In this document: positions 4,051 to 30,339 of the stretch, piece by piece
How the letters are laid out: each line of letters opens with the position of its first letter
Position numbering within the stretch: the first letter of the stretch is position 1
From: Armatimonadota bacterium
Lineage (GTDB): Bacteria > Armatimonadota > Hebobacteria > GCA-020354555 > CP070648
NCBI GenBank assembly: GCA_035527535.1
Contig: DATLAK010000175.1
Coordinates: forward strand, 1-35,335
Direction: 5' to 3'
Length of the DNA: 35,335 bases
Notes under the pieces: model-generated
What the model saw: the letters and a program-made list of their open reading frames with translations, nothing else
What the model was told of the DNA's origin: nothing
Databases searched by the model: none
Program-made: the position numbers and the translations under genes

Positions 4051-4190
4051 GGGTGTGACCGCGAAAGGTTGAGGCCACCCTGGGCGCGTAGTCTCCGGAC
4101 CGCACGGATGTGGGGGCAAGGCATGCCTTGCCCTTACGAGGTCGCGCCCGGGTGTGCGCCCAGCCATCCCAACGAGAAACGGTCGCCCCC
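4051..4190. repeat. MITE-like element, copy A (140 bp)
   Basis: The left end GGGTGTGACCGCG..GGTTG and the right end CCCAACG..ACGGTCGCCCCC are imperfect inverted repeats. The 28-bp palindrome family copy (4110-4137) lies between them. The element has the same architecture as 16181-16316. It carries no coding sequence, so any mobility would need a transposase in trans. Position 3780-4050 upstream shows nothing else I can name. Confidence 0.65.
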
Positions 4191-4205: not shown

Positions 4206-4235
4206 TTGACACCCCCTGTGACCGACGCTTACAAT
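4206..4235 (+). promoter_or_regulatory. Promoter of the zinc-ribbon membrane protein
   Basis: TTGACA (4206-4211) and TACAAT (4230-4235) are separated by 18 bases. The start of transcription would fall near 4242, only a few bases before the GGAGGGG ribosome site at about 4247-4253, so the leader is very short. It lies immediately outside MITE-like copy A. Confidence 0.75.
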
Positions 4236-4260
4236 GGGGCACCATCGGAGGGGCGCTGCC

Positions 4261-4521
4261 ATGGAGCCATGGATGATACTCTTCCTTACCGTGTTCGTCC
4301 TGCTCGTGTCCGCCTTTGTCGGGCTGTTGATCGGCACCACCAAGGGGCACACGCCCCTGGTCAGCGCGCTCGCCGGCATCCTCCTGCTGCCGCTGGGATG
4401 GGTGCTGCTGTGGATCATCCCCTCGGGCAAGCTGCGCAAGTGCCCCCACTGTGCGGAGATCATCAAGGACGAGGCCACCGTCTGCCGCTTCTGCGGGCGC
4501 GACATCCCGCCGAAGTATTGA
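4261..4521 (+). CDS. Two-helix membrane protein with C-terminal zinc ribbon
   Basis: The protein has 86 residues. Residues 4-24 (WMILFLTVFVLLVSAFVGLLI) and about 35-57 are hydrophobic helices. They are followed by a rubredoxin-like zinc ribbon, CPHCAEIIKDEATVCRFCGRDI, with two CxxC pairs that should bind one zinc ion, presumably in the cytoplasm. The arrangement is common in small bacterial membrane proteins of unknown role. The start ATG at 4261 follows GGAGGGG; an in-frame ATG 27 bases upstream overlaps the promoter start site and is unlikely. The gene is transcribed alone from its own promoter. Confidence 0.85.
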   Translation: MEPWMILFLTVFVLLVSAFVGLLIGTTKGHTPLVSALAGILLLPLGWVLLWIIPSGKLRKCPHCAEIIKDEATVCRFCGRDIPPKY

Positions 4522-4626
4522 GCGTCATTCACCGCGGAGACCGCCGGGGTCGCAGAGAGACTTAACCTCGGATGGACGCCTCCGCATCTGTGCTCCCCCT
4601 GGTTCAACACGAGGTCCCAAACGCCA

Positions 4627-4659
4627 ACCGGCTCCTCCGATCTCATCGGGGGAGCCGGT
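4627..4659 (-). terminator. Strong hairpin downstream of the 6S-like RNA
   Basis: A 15-bp stem (one T-G wobble) with a CTC loop: ACCGGCTCC..CCGAT pairs with ATCGG..GGAGCCGGT. On the minus strand it follows the predicted 3' end of the structured RNA by about 11 bases. The trailing T-run (GTTTG) is weak, so termination may be inefficient or the hairpin may protect the end. On the plus strand it could end the zinc-ribbon gene transcript. Confidence 0.45.
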
Positions 4660-4670
4660 CAATTAAGAAA

Positions 4671-4850
4671 CCCCGCATGTGCCGTGTGTCTCTCCGTTTT
4701 TGAACCCGCCTAAGCAGGTGGGTGCTCTCGCCGACCGCTTCGCGATTCTCCCCGCTGTGCGGGAAGCTGCCACTCGGCGCCCGGACTCAAGCTCCCAGTT
4801 TTTGAGTGTTGGCTCAAAACTTCTGATGACAAGTCACGTGCACCGCAGGG
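4671..4850 (-). ncRNA. ssrS: Structured RNA, probable 6S RNA
   Basis: On the minus strand the ends form an interrupted long stem: CCCTGCGGTGCACGTGAC..GTC at 4850-4828 pairs with GACACACGGCACATGCGGGG at 4690-4671. Inside, AGTTTTGAG pairs with TTCAAAAAC. Further in are the hairpins ACTCAA/TTGAGT, CGCCGA/TCGGCG (around CCCGC/GCGGG) and ACCCACC/GGCGGGT. The roughly 180-nt length, closing stem, large internal loop, terminal stem and the small ACCCACC..GGCGGGT hairpin on the 3' side match 6S RNA as known from several phyla. 6S RNA mimics an open promoter and sequesters sigma70-RNA polymerase. A promoter at 4904-4876 supports transcription from this strand. Another structured RNA cannot be excluded without a covariance search. 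Confidence 0.55.
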
Positions 4851-4875
4851 TTTCTTTCTCGCTTATTCCATGAGC

Positions 4876-4904
4876 ATCCTAGCATATCCACCACCGCATG
4901 ACAA
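4876..4904 (-). promoter_or_regulatory. Promoter of the 6S-like RNA
   Basis: On the minus strand TTGTCA (4904-4899) and TAGGAT (4881-4876) are separated by 17 bases. Transcription should begin near 4869, about 18 bases before the closing stem of the RNA. The -10 is imperfect. Confidence 0.55.
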
Positions 4905-5028
4905 GACGTATCCGCCCCGGTGGTGTCAACTTGTGTGGGTGAACTGCCAGCGCAGGGATTGGGTGCAGCGTCAGTCGGTGTGGTCGATAACGGCGTAGCG
5001 GGTGCGGTCGCCGCTGCGTGGGGTGGGT

Positions 5029-5171
5029 CCTTCGACTTCGCTAGGACAAGTTCTCCTGACCGACCCGCATGTTAGGGCAGGCTCTCAGCCTACCCAAGTC
5101 GCAGGCCAGGAGCCAATGCCACACCGTTCGGACGGGCCGGTCTGGAGGACTTGCCCTGAGCTTGCCGAAGG
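5029..5171. repeat. Inverted-repeat element (CCTTCGAC ends)
   Basis: A 22-bp imperfect inverted repeat frames about 100 bp: CCTTCGACTTCGCTAGGACA at 5029 and, in reverse, CTTGCCCTGAGCTTGCCGAA from 5150. It has no coding content. Ends of this type (CTTCGACAAGCTCAGG-like) are widespread as dispersed non-coding repeats in environmental genomes. The rest of 4851-5395 holds only the 6S-like promoter and no gene I can support. Confidence 0.55.
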
Positions 5172-5395
5172 GCTCGGGGTGACATCACTCGTTGGGTGAA
5201 CCACGCTCGGAATGCATCATCTCGGTCTGATGTTCTGTGCGGTGGGGCGCTACTGCTGGCGCACGGTGGACCGCACGGAATCACCACCGCCTGTGGCATC
5301 GCCACCACCACCGGCAAAGGATACCAAGCCCCGAGGGTGGAAGCCATCTGCGTCAGCGGATCGCATCAGCTTGCTGACCATCGGAGGTGGACGCA

Positions 5396-6886
5396 GTGAA
5401 TCTACACCTGATCGACGCTTTGTGCATCATACCGGCCCTCTTGGTCCTGGGGGTGCCCGCGCATGGGGCGGGCACCAGAAGCGACCTCGACGCTGACGGC
5501 ATGCTGATGGTCAACGGTCAGCGCATGCTGGTGCTGGGGTGCTACGAGCGGCCGAAAACCGACGAGGGGCTGGCCGAACTCGCGGCCGCCGGCTTCAACC
5601 TGGTGTACTCCAAGCCGACCACGGAGGCGCTCGACCAGTTGGCGGCTCACAACCTGTGGGGATGGGTCAACCTGGGCGGCAATCTCAATCTGTCCACGGC
5701 GGGCGACAAGCGCAGCCAGGCATTGACCGCGACCGTAAACGCGCTGCGCGGGCACCCGGCGCTGCTGGTGTGGGAAGGCCCGGACGAAGCGCTGTGGAAC
5801 ATCTTCCATGACGTCAAGGCGCGGGAGCGGACCGAGTATCGGCACCTGCGGGACGCAGTGGCGAAGCGCAAGGCCGAGGCCGGGGGCCAGGATTCGTCGG
5901 CGCTGGACGGCGCCTGGGCCAGGTTCGATGCGGCGCACGCCGAGGCCGACTATGAGCGCGAGGCGCCGGCGCGTCAGGAGCTGTACGCCCAGCTTGGCGA
6001 GCAAGCGCCGCCGGCGCCCTACGGCATGGCGGAGGCGCCCGCGCTCGCCCAGGTCGCGGCCGAGGGCTTTCGACAGGGTTACTATCTGCTCAAGCGGCTG
6101 GACGCCGACCACCCGCTGTGGTTCAACCACGCCCCGCGCAACAGCGTTGCCGCCCTTGCTGAGTTCAACCGCGCCTGCGACATCTGCGGCTGCGACATCT
6201 ACCCGGTTCCCCCCGACGTGATCGGCCACAGCGACCTGCGCGACCGGTCGTTGGCGGCGGTGGGCAGCTACACCGAGCGCATGAAGCTGGCGGGCCAGGG
6301 CCGGCCCGTGTGGATGGTGCTGCAGGGCTGCGGGTGGTATGACCTGGACTCGCCGGAGAGCCAGAAGGCGCACCCGGAGCAGCGCGAAACCGGCCGCCGG
6401 CCGACCTACGACGAGACGCGGTTCATGGCCTACTGCGCGCTGGTTCACGGCGCGACCGGGATCCTCTATTTCGGCACCTTCTCCATCGAGGACGATTGCG
6501 AGCTGTGGACCAGCATCAAGCGCACGGTGGGCGAACTCGCCGCGCTGCGACCCGTCTGGGAGGCGCCGACCCTCGCCTGGCGCCCGCAGGCCGAGCTGGT
6601 TGAATGCGGGAGCTCCGGCGACCACGGGCTGTGGGTGATGCCCAAGAAGTACGCGGGCGATCTCTACCTGCTGGTGGTGAACGAAGAACGCGAGCCGCGC
6701 GTGTTCTCCCTGCGCGGCATGGAGGCCTACGAGGGGAAGTCCTTCCATCGGCTGTTTGAGGGAGACACGGTGACCGTCAGCGACGGCGCCCTGTCCGGCT
6801 CGATTCGCGCCTACGGGGTGAGCATCTACGCCGGCGGCTCCGCCTTCGACGCCCGCGCCGCCGACCTGCGCGCCCGCCAGAAATAG
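5396..6886 (+). CDS. Exported glycoside-hydrolase-like TIM-barrel protein
   Basis: The protein (496 residues) starts with a hydrophobic export signal (ALCIIPALLVLGVPAHGAG, cut near residue 25). It then reads LMVNGQRMLVLGCYERP and AAAGFNLVYSKPT, a beginning typical of GH-A clan barrels such as GH2/GH42-like proteins. PALLVWEGPDEALWN has the form of a barrel strand carrying an acidic residue, and ATGILYFGTFSIEDD a later one. I cannot assign a numbered family. The GTG at 5396 is chosen because GGAGGTGG ends five bases before it; an earlier GTG overlaps that ribosome site. It leads a probable operon with the Gfo/Idh/MocA and GH130 genes, suggesting glycan processing outside the cytoplasm. Confidence 0.75.
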   Translation: MNLHLIDALCIIPALLVLGVPAHGAGTRSDLDADGMLMVNGQRMLVLGCYERPKTDEGLAELAAAGFNLVYSKPTTEALDQLAAHNLWGWVNLGGNLNLSTAGDKRSQALTATVNALRGHPALLVWEGPDEALWNIFHDVKARERTEYRHLRDAVAKRKAEAGGQDSSALDGAWARFDAAHAEADYEREAPARQELYAQLGEQAPPAPYGMAEAPALAQVAAEGFRQGYYLLKRLDADHPLWFNHAPRNSVAALAEFNRACDICGCDIYPVPPDVIGHSDLRDRSLAAVGSYTERMKLAGQGRPVWMVLQGCGWYDLDSPESQKAHPEQRETGRRPTYDETRFMAYCALVHGATGILYFGTFSIEDDCELWTSIKRTVGELAALRPVWEAPTLAWRPQAELVECGSSGDHGLWVMPKKYAGDLYLLVVNEEREPRVFSLRGMEAYEGKSFHRLFEGDTVTVSDGALSGSIRAYGVSIYAGGSAFDARAADLRARQK

Positions 6887-12315: not shown

Positions 12316-12332
12316 GGCAGGACCATCCCCTG

Positions 12333-12356
12333 TGGCACAGCCGCCCTCGGCTGTGC
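12333..12356. repeat. 24-bp palindrome, argC-argJ spacer
   Basis: GTG is followed by GCACAGCCG, a CCCT loop and CGGCTGTG(C). The same 24 bases occur at 14494-14517 between argB and argD, and inverted with one change at 16248-16271 upstream of argG. As RNA it would form a stable hairpin between cistrons. Confidence 0.75.
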
Positions 12357-14493: not shown

Positions 14494-14517
14494 GTGGCAC
14501 AGCCGCCCTCGGCTGTG
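14494..14517. repeat. 24-bp palindrome, argB-argD spacer
   Basis: Identical over 24 bases to 12333-12356 (GCACAGCCG arm, CCCT loop, CGGCTGTG arm). It sits 10 bases after argB and before the argD ribosome site. Confidence 0.75.
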
Positions 14518-16180: not shown

Positions 16181-16316
16181 GGGTGTGACCGCGGAAAGTT
16201 GGGATCGGTCGCGAGAACCTGTAGGGGCGCACGGCGTGCGCCGCCTTCACAGCCGGGGGCGGCTGTGCCACATTCGGGCACATAACCGGTCACCCCAACC
16301 AAGAACGGTCACACCC
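16181..16316. repeat. MITE-like element, copy B (136 bp)
   Basis: The terminal inverted repeats share a perfect GGGTGTGACCG followed by (A/G)GTTGGG: 16181-16204 on the left, 16293-16316 on the right. Between them are a GTAGGGGCGCAC palindrome relative (16221-16242) and an inverted copy of the 24-bp arg palindrome (16248-16271). The architecture matches copy A at 4051-4190. It ends 30 bases before argG and may separate argG expression from the upstream genes. Confidence 0.75.
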
Positions 16317-26019: not shown

Positions 26020-27126
26020 ATGCTGATCGGGGTTCCACGCGAGACCAAGGACGGGGAGAAGCGGGTCGCCATTACCCCGGCCGGCGTCACCGCTCTGCGC
26101 CAGCACGGGCATGAGGCGCTGGTGGAAGCGGGGGCGGGGCGGGGCAGCGGCTACGAGGACGAGGACTACTGCGTCGCCGGCGGGGCCATCGCGGCGACCG
26201 CGGACGCGGTCTGGGCGCGCGCCGAGGTGGTGCTCAAGGTCAAGGAGCCGCTGCCCAGCGAGTACGCCCGGCTGCGCCCGGAGCTGGTGCTCTTCACCTA
26301 CCTGCACCTGGCGTCATCGGAGCCGCTGACGCGCGCGCTGCTCGATTCCGGCGTCACCGCCATCGGCTACGAGACCGTGCAGACGGATGCGGGCGCCCTG
26401 CCCCTGCTGGTGCCCATGAGCGAGATCGCGGGGAAGATGTCGGTGCAGATCGGCGCGCGCTATCTCGAGGCCGACTTCGGCGGCCGCGGCGTGCTGGTGG
26501 GCGGGGTGCCGGGGGTGCCGCCGGCGGAGGTGGTCATCATCGGCTGCGGGGTGGTGGGCATCAATGCCGCCAAAGTCGCCATGGGCCTGGGCGCCCATGT
26601 CACCATCCTCGACGTTGACCACGAGCGCCTGCGCTACCTCGACGACATCATGCACGGCAACGTCATCACCGTCTATTCCAATTCCTTCAACATAGCGCGC
26701 GCGGCGGGCTACGCCGACCTGCTGGTGGGGGCGGTGCTGGTGGCGGGGGCGCGCGCGCCCAAGCTCGTGACCGCCGACATGGTGCGCGCGATGAAGCGCG
26801 GCGCGGTGATCGTGGATGTGGCGGTGGACCAGGGGGGATGCGTGGAGACGATACGGCCCACCAGTCACTCGCAGCCGACTTATGTCGAGCACGGGGTCAT
26901 CCACTACGGGGTGCCCAACATCCCGGCCGCGGTGCCGCGCACTGCCACCCACGCCTTGACCAACGCGACTCTGCCTTACGTCCTCGATCTCGCGGACTAC
27001 GGCCTTGACGACGCCCTCGCGCGCAACCCCGCCCTGGCGCGCGGGCTCAACCTGCGCACGGGGGAAATCATCCACCCGGCGGTGGCTGAAGCCTTTAATT
27101 CCGGGGACAGTCGACTTAATTATTGA
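26020..27126 (+). CDS. ald: Alanine dehydrogenase, 3' end replaced by mobile-element sequence
   Basis: Ald interconverts alanine with pyruvate plus ammonia using NAD. The protein has the canonical residues Arg15, Lys75 (VLKVKEPLPSEY) and His96 (FTYLHLAS). The NAD fold is VVIIGCGVVGINAAKVAMGLGAHVTILDVD, and DVAVDQGGCVET carries the catalytic Asp. HGVIHYGVPNIPAAVPRTAT is also typical. GGGAGG precedes the ATG at 26020. The last nine residues, NSGDSRLNY, and the stop come from the 26-bp terminal repeat of the RAYT element at 27097. Relatives usually continue about a dozen residues (G-L-P-type tail), so the natural C-terminus is lost. The active site is intact. Confidence 0.95.
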   Translation: MLIGVPRETKDGEKRVAITPAGVTALRQHGHEALVEAGAGRGSGYEDEDYCVAGGAIAATADAVWARAEVVLKVKEPLPSEYARLRPELVLFTYLHLASSEPLTRALLDSGVTAIGYETVQTDAGALPLLVPMSEIAGKMSVQIGARYLEADFGGRGVLVGGVPGVPPAEVVIIGCGVVGINAAKVAMGLGAHVTILDVDHERLRYLDDIMHGNVITVYSNSFNIARAAGYADLLVGAVLVAGARAPKLVTADMVRAMKRGAVIVDVAVDQGGCVETIRPTSHSQPTYVEHGVIHYGVPNIPAAVPRTATHALTNATLPYVLDLADYGLDDALARNPALARGLNLRTGEIIHPAVAEAFNSGDSRLNY

Positions 27127-27846
27127 CGCACAACCGCAATCGTGGTACAAGGGGGCCATGCCACGGGTCGGACGGATCGTTGTGCCAGGCGTACCTCATC
27201 ATGTCACCCAGCGCGGCAACCGCGGCATGGACGTTTTCTTCAGCGACGCTGACCGCGCCGCCTATCTCAGGCTGCTCGGGGAATGTAGCGCCGAGCACGG
27301 CGCCGACCTTTTCGCCTATTGCCTGATGTCGAATCACGTGCATTTGGTTCTGTCGCCACAGCGCGAAGACAGTCTCGCCCTGGCCGTCGGCTGGACGCAC
27401 TTTCACTACACTCGGCGGGTGAACTTCCGCAAGGACTGGCGCGGGCATCTGTGGCAGGGGAGGTTCCATTCCTGCGCGCTGGATGACGCGCATTGTCTGC
27501 GAGCGATTCGCTACGTCGAGCTTAATCCCGTGCGCGCCGGGTTGGTTGAGCAACCTGAGCAGTGGCCCTGGTCAAGCGCCCCGGCGCATCTCAACCATGC
27601 CCCTGACCCGGTGCTCGCGCCGCGGCCGTGGCGGACTGAAGAACTCGACTGGGCGGAGTTCCTGAGTCAGGGCACATCGGAGGCCGACCTGACGCAGGTG
27701 CGACGCAAGACCCGGACTGGCCGGCCCCTGGGCGAAAGTGGGTTCATCGAACAACTGGAATCCCAGCTCGGCCGGCAGCTTCGCTGCCGCAAACCGGGGC
27801 CAAAGGGGCCGAGAAAGCCGTAATTAAGTCGACTGTCCCCGGAATT
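27097..27846. mobile_element. RAYT transposon with perfect 26-bp inverted repeats
   Basis: AATTCCGGGGACAGTCGACT plus TAATTA (27097-27122) recurs as an exact reverse complement at 27821-27846, framing one transposase gene in 750 bp. The left repeat lies inside the 3' end of ald; the right one begins at the transposase stop codon. The same palindrome, without a transposase, occurs at 29236-29300. REP-associated transposases (IS200/IS605-like Y1 enzymes) are known to act on such palindromes. No clear target duplication is seen. Confidence 0.9.
27158..27823 (+). CDS. REP-associated tyrosine transposase (RAYT, Y1 family)
   Basis: RAYTs are single-strand-acting Y1 HUH nucleases related to IS200 TnpA that cut at REP palindromes. 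The 221-residue protein begins MPRVGRIVVPGVPHHVTQRGNRG, the family N-terminus. It has YCLMSNHVHLVL with the metal-binding His60-x-His62 pair, HYTRRVN with the likely catalytic Tyr84, then the family signatures GHLWQGRFHSCALDD and AIRYVELNPVRAGLVE. A basic C-terminal tail (RKPGPKGPRKP) follows. All motifs are intact, so it may be active. The stop codon is the first triplet of the right inverted repeat, so gene and repeat interlock. Confidence 0.93.
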   Translation: MPRVGRIVVPGVPHHVTQRGNRGMDVFFSDADRAAYLRLLGECSAEHGADLFAYCLMSNHVHLVLSPQREDSLALAVGWTHFHYTRRVNFRKDWRGHLWQGRFHSCALDDAHCLRAIRYVELNPVRAGLVEQPEQWPWSSAPAHLNHAPDPVLAPRPWRTEELDWAEFLSQGTSEADLTQVRRKTRTGRPLGESGFIEQLESQLGRQLRCRKPGPKGPRKP

Positions 27847-27887
27847 CCCCTGAATGAGGAATAGAGACGCAGAAACGAGCAGGAGCT

Positions 27888-29166: not shown

Positions 29167-29235
29167 TTTTTCCTCACATAACGATATCAAATATTCCAGC
29201 AGTCCATTATTATTAAGGAATCATGGGGGAATCAT

Positions 29236-29300
29236 GGGGACAGTCGACTTAATTATTGCAGATGCCTTAAATCAATCGCAATTAAGTCGACTGTCCCCAC
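29236..29300. repeat. REPIN-like hairpin of the RAYT palindrome
   Basis: GGGGACAGTCGACTTAATT and its exact complement (29236-29254 and 29280-29298) face each other across about 25 bases. The arms are identical to the inner part of the RAYT element ends at 27097-27846. No transposase is between them, as in REP doublets mobilised in trans by a RAYT. On the minus strand the left-hand reading enters rlmN and provides its stop codon. Confidence 0.85.
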
Positions 29301-30339
29301 AATTAGGGCGGCCAGCCGCCAGCTGCCCGCACGCCGCCGCCACCTCTTCGCCGAAGGACCGGCGCACCGCGACTTCCACCCCCCGGCGCTCCAGCTCGGC
29401 GCGAAAGGCGCGCATAACCGCAGGCGCGGGGCGGGCGAAGGCGCCGCGCGCCTGGTTGTAGGGGATGAGGTTGACCATGCACGGCAGGCCTCGCAGCCGC
29501 TGGGCGAGGGCGGCGGCCTGGGCCGGCGCGTCGTTGACCCCCGCCAGCAGGCAATACTCGAAGGCTACTTTGCGTCCGGTGTGGGCGGCGAAGTCGCGCG
29601 CGGCGGCGACCACCGAGGCCAGCGGATGGCGGCGGTTGACCGGCATCAGGCGGCTGCGCAGGTCGTCGTCGGGCGCATTGAGCGATACCGCCAGGTGCAC
29701 GCCCAACCCCTCGCGCGCCAGGCGGCGCATCTCCGGCGGCAGCCCGCACGTGGAGATGGCGACGTGGCGGGCGCCGAAACCGAGGCATGCCGGGTCGAGG
29801 ATGATGCGCACCGCCTTCACCAGCGCGTCGTAGTTTGCGAGCGGCTCGCCCATGCCCATGAACACGACATTGGACAACCGGCGCTCGTCATCATCCGCGC
29901 GCGCGAGGAGCAATTGCCCGACGATTTCGGCGGCGGTGAGGTCGCGCTCGAAACCCATGCCGCCGGTGGCGCAGAACGCGCAGCCGTAGGCGCACCCCAC
30001 CTGGCTGGAGATGCAGGCGGTGCGACGGCGCGGGTAGGGCATGATCACCGTCTCGATGTGAGCGCCGTCGGGCAGGCGCAGCACCAGCTTGACGCCGCCG
30101 TCGCGGGCCGGGCGCCGCGCAACCGCGGTCAACGGGTGCACCGCCGCCTGTCGTCCCAGCTCGTCCCGCAGCGCCTGCGGCAGGTCGCTCATGTCCGCGA
30201 AGCCGCGCGCCCCGCGCTGGTATACCCAGCGCAGGACCTGGCGGGCGCGATAGGGCTCGTGCCCGCGGTCGGACAGGAGCTGCTCGAACTCGTGGGGCAA
30301 CAGGCCGCACACGAAAGGCATGGAAGGCATGGATGACAT
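29272..30339 (-). CDS. rlmN: 23S rRNA/tRNA adenine-C2 methyltransferase, with REP-derived tail
   Basis: RlmN is a radical-SAM enzyme that methylates A2503 of 23S rRNA and A37 of some tRNAs. The 355-residue protein has ACISSQVGCAYGCAFCATG with the cluster cysteines Cys116, Cys120 and Cys123. NVVFMGMGEPLANYD, HVAISTCGLPPEMRRLA, the HLAVSLNAPDD stretch and the methyl-carrying Cys337 (AAACGQLAAG) follow. The final residues NCGDSRLNCD and the stop are encoded by the adjoining REPIN; the natural end should be near AAGRP. The start is uncertain (ATGs at codons 1, 4 and 7, none with a clear ribosome site). Confidence 0.94.
   Translation of the reverse strand: MSSMPSMPFVCGLLPHEFEQLLSDRGHEPYRARQVLRWVYQRGARGFADMSDLPQALRDELGRQAAVHPLTAVARRPARDGGVKLVLRLPDGAHIETVIMPYPRRRTACISSQVGCAYGCAFCATGGMGFERDLTAAEIVGQLLLARADDDERRLSNVVFMGMGEPLANYDALVKAVRIILDPACLGFGARHVAISTCGLPPEMRRLAREGLGVHLAVSLNAPDDDLRSRLMPVNRRHPLASVVAAARDFAAHTGRKVAFEYCLLAGVNDAPAQAAALAQRLRGLPCMVNLIPYNQARGAFARPAPAVMRAFRAELERRGVEVAVRRSFGEEVAAACGQLAAGRPNCGDSRLNCD

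Follow-up and report, generated by a model that had tools for sequence, protein, structure and literature searches.

The window, i.e., the whole stretch of 35,335 nucleotides from an Armatimonadota bacterium analysed here, contains an 865-base gap (4522-5386) bordered by a small zinc-ribbon ORF (4234-4521, plus strand) and a 499-aa ORF (5387-6886, plus strand). A previous sequence-only reading had described this stretch as otherwise gene-free, in line with our results: as tested, 4522-5386 carries no genes, and none of the submitted ORFs overlapping the gap had a Pfam match. The gap harbors on the minus strand the core of a 6S RNA (ssrS), preceded by a predicted promoter and adjoined on its 3' side by a strong hairpin. 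When six neighbouring proteins of the window were compared with the 6S flanks of relatives, no conserved neighbour was found, barring a weak Gfo/Idh match (34.8%) near the 6S RNA in L111.

Some additional features were observed elsewhere in the window. The infC-rpmI-rplT cluster (IF-3, L35, L20) was found in standard order at 885-2361 on the minus strand. The perfect palindrome GGGCAAGGCATGCCTTGCCC occurs at 49-68 and 4114-4133 and has 47 copies genome-wide, while its reversed control has none, marking the palindrome as a dispersed repeat. Four related copies of AATTAAGTCGACTGTCCCCGGAATT, both direct and inverted, are located at 27081-27122, 27819-27850 and 29226-29320 and resemble REP-type or small mobile element ends. 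Finally, the hairpin GTGGCACAGCCGCCCTCGGCTGTG is present in three identical or near-identical copies, direct and inverted, at 12331-12355, 14494-14517 and 16248-16272.

Identity and fold of the RNA

6S RNA is a well-known bacterial RNA that restrains RNA polymerase as an open-promoter mimic. A full-text search of open papers returned no studies of 6S RNA in Armatimonadota, a lineage that had been called poorly sampled and is indeed sparsely studied. Our cmscan against all of Rfam revealed a match to RF00013 (6S/SsrS) at 4854-4666 on the minus strand, with 95.7 bits and an E-value of 3.7e-18. This is about twice the gathering score of 46.4 bits, and the alignment covers model positions 1-187, that is the full length. 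Across the window as a whole, RF00013 was the sole Rfam family to exceed its gathering score; apart from it, E-values up to 1 brought up no plausible family. The core extends over 189 nt from closing stem to closing stem (4666-4854, minus strand), as supported by the RF00013 match and covariation, and it is present in a single copy in the 3.24 Mb genome, which is 95.75% complete. Weak matches to HIV-1_SL4 and ncS035, both under their own gathering scores, were taken as chance.

The predicted fold is exceptionally stable. Its minimum free energy of -90.6 kcal/mol compares with an average of -64.4 (sd 4.0) over dinucleotide shuffles; the z-score is -6.59, and 0 of 200 shuffles reached the observed value. 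For covariation, 29 homologues were aligned with MAFFT without structural guidance and the Rfam structure was counted on top of the alignment. The stems proposed in the sequence-only reading were found to be rich in compensatory changes among relatives, with double-sided changes at 29 of the 51 Rfam stem pairs. In the same set 81.9% of the cells were paired compared with 76.2% after shuffling, and pairing dropped to only 46.6-49.9% when the partner was shifted by one column. The covariation score was 0.238 versus 0.151 in shuffled alignments, and none of 500 shuffles reached the observed score. A class-level set (n = 11 sequences) gave 88.7% pairing and 18 pairs with double changes, while RNAalifold recovered the rod and the bubble in an independent prediction.

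The closing stem, the central bubble and the terminal stem are thus all backed by compensatory changes. According to the RF00013 alignment, the 5' strand of the bubble (4797-4810, minus strand) is unpaired between helices 2 and 3, and the 3' strand (4707-4719, minus strand) can form a small hairpin, as the RNAalifold prediction also indicates. The inner part of helix 3 was poorly kept (59% of cells in the MAFFT alignment), and much of this low pairing may be alignment drift. Taken together, the minus-strand locus is almost certainly ssrS, the canonical 6S RNA of an Armatimonadota bacterium, with its function assigned by homology. The earlier proposal of a 6S RNA was therefore borne out, as neither outcome named as refuting it (absence of an RF00013 hit, absence of compensatory changes in the stems) occurred, with the structure lying at the place claimed, except that its low end at 4671 omits the final five bases of the RNA core.

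Predicted promoter and 3' end

A consensus scan placed a -35 box, TTGTCA, at 4899-4904 and an extended -10 box, TGC-TAGGAT, at 4876-4884 (hexamer 4881-4876), both on the minus strand. The nearest relative, G192, carries TTGCCA at the same spacing. The combination TTGTCA-17-TAGGAT with the extended TG is the sole sigma70-like site in the surrounding 1 kb, where 0.2 would be expected, and in the 3.2 kb scanned in G192 the sole such site (TTGCCA-17-TAGCAT) occupies the equivalent place upstream of the 6S RNA. Moreover, TGnTAnnAT was found within 80 bases upstream of the 6S RNA in 19 of 24 sequences (window included), against an expectation of 0.35 from mononucleotide shuffles. These findings agree with the same-strand -35/-10 promoter that had been suggested for the RNA. 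The -10 box lies 21 nt upstream of the RF00013 model start, so that the primary transcript probably begins about 15 nt ahead of the core. At the sequence level, the locus appears to be an independent gene, about 180-200 nt long and equipped with a predicted promoter (4904-4876) of its own.

The hairpin adjoining the 3' side of the RNA (4626-4660, minus strand) folds with -28.1 kcal/mol (z -3.5) and has a homologous counterpart in G192. In the latter it is followed by TTTTTT, while in the window the T-tract is interrupted or degraded, and the terminator scan detected no clean T-tract terminator at this hairpin. The element at 4660-4626 is probably a terminator or the remnant of one, and transcription would end there.

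Should the interrupted T-tract be considered jointly with the -10 hexamer TAGGAT, in place of which many relatives carry TATCAT, one might suspect a decayed or silenced 6S copy. We regard this as extremely unlikely given that the locus is the sole copy in the genome, that its closing stem and pRNA region are intact and that its score equals those of the best relatives. The idea of an unrelated structured RNA or a chance hairpin-rich sequence fares even worse: GC-rich intergenic DNA folds readily and a strong hairpin does lie adjacent at 4660-4626, but the E-value of 3.7e-18, the fold z-score of -6.6, the covariation reached by 0 of 500 shuffles and the conserved promoter have already refuted it, leaving it practically no probability. 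A genuine 6S RNA gene with its own promoter is the reading that we retain.

Occurrence in the phylum

At a threshold of E <= 0.001, homologues of the 6S RNA were detected in 105 of the 291 genomes of the phylum, over equal full model length. An example is the 6S RNA of G247 (C91:9046-9226, 87.7 bits). Two further models, R1 and R2, were built from phylum sequences. Members of family f20 that were missed or weakly scored by RF00013 were well found by both of them; since two f20 sequences belong to R2, the R1 result alone is independent for this family. At some 6S loci R1 also produced antisense matches (17-32 bits), which were attributed to the near-palindromic rod and excluded.

6S RNA is present in f20 and in further families of the phylum, but none was detected in family f19 with RF00013, R1 or R2 (85 genomes searched, part of the candidate stretches scored). 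The f19 genomes searched include, e.g., G077, G080, G135 and G154, and several of those without a match consist of a single contig. Similarly, those members of f9 and f23 that were searched yielded no 6S RNA with RF00013 or the phylum-built models, again with part of the candidate stretches scored. Lineage-specific loss or strong divergence is a possible explanation for the pattern in the three families; as only part of the candidate stretches was scored, loss is suggested rather than proven. It is tentatively conceivable, although we rate it somewhat short of probable, that 6S RNA is ancestral in Armatimonadota but has either disappeared or diverged past recognition across the large sister family f19. 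If this is true, close relatives with and without 6S RNA could reveal its purpose.

Predicted product RNA and comparison with known systems

The motif GCCRAC, located on the bubble's 5' strand, is kept in 22 of 24 sequences, rendering the putative start region of the product RNA (pRNA) nearly invariant. Initiation at the last C of this motif would yield 5'-GUUGGCUCAAAACUUC, a predicted pRNA templated by the 6S RNA from nt 47 (4808-4823, plus strand), as suggested by GCCRAC conservation and the likeness to Bacillus subtilis.

By analogy with the 6S RNAs of Escherichia coli and B. subtilis, a mechanism can be proposed. The sigma70-type promoter at 4904-4876 would drive transcription of the minus strand, and the transcript would end at or near the downstream hairpin. 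Homology and covariation show that the RNA folds as a rod, the central bubble of which imitates an open promoter. The housekeeping sigma70/sigmaA holoenzyme would bind 6S RNA instead of DNA. Upon nutrient exhaustion transcription would be lowered by 6S RNA. When nucleotides return, the polymerase would copy the bubble into a short pRNA starting with GUUGGCUC, the synthesis of which would open helix 2 and free the enzyme. For the present RNA, holoenzyme binding, control by growth phase and pRNA-driven release of the enzyme are all predictions.

A further alternative is that of a 6S-like RNA with a changed partner. Ms1, which binds core RNA polymerase without sigma, is known from Actinobacteria, whereas the present RNA comes from Armatimonadota and directly matches the 6S model. 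In structure, Ms1 is a relative of 6S RNA (PMC9130861), and the partner of the present RNA is predicted by homology. However, the full-length RF00013 match lies well above the cut-off, no other plausible Rfam family appeared at E-values up to 1, and the retention of GCCRAC in 22 of 24 sequences is expected of an RNA still serving as template. We thus consider an Ms1-like RNA very unlikely and keep the assignment to canonical 6S RNA.

With this locus, a little-studied phylum gains a canonical 6S RNA for which the promoter is conserved and a pRNA is predicted. A familiar global regulator is thereby recorded in one more lineage, and no concept changes. With regard to the pRNA, that of B. subtilis 6S-1 (BsrA) is 5'-GUUCGGUCAAAACUA (PMC12005410) and starts at nt 40 (PMC8876501), compared with the predicted nt 47 here; the start predicted here, GUUGGCUCAAAACU, is closely similar to the B. 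subtilis pRNA GUUCGGUCAAAACU. The RNA resembles the 6S/SsrS family (RF00013) in length, long closing stem, central bubble, terminal stem, own promoter and single copy, and shares with it the motifs CCCUGCGGUG, CACGGCA, GCGGGG, GAGCC-AACA and CACCCACCUG. Only lineage-level sequence differences set it apart; the locus shows no departure from canonical 6S RNA, and the RNA is an ordinary addition to this known family.
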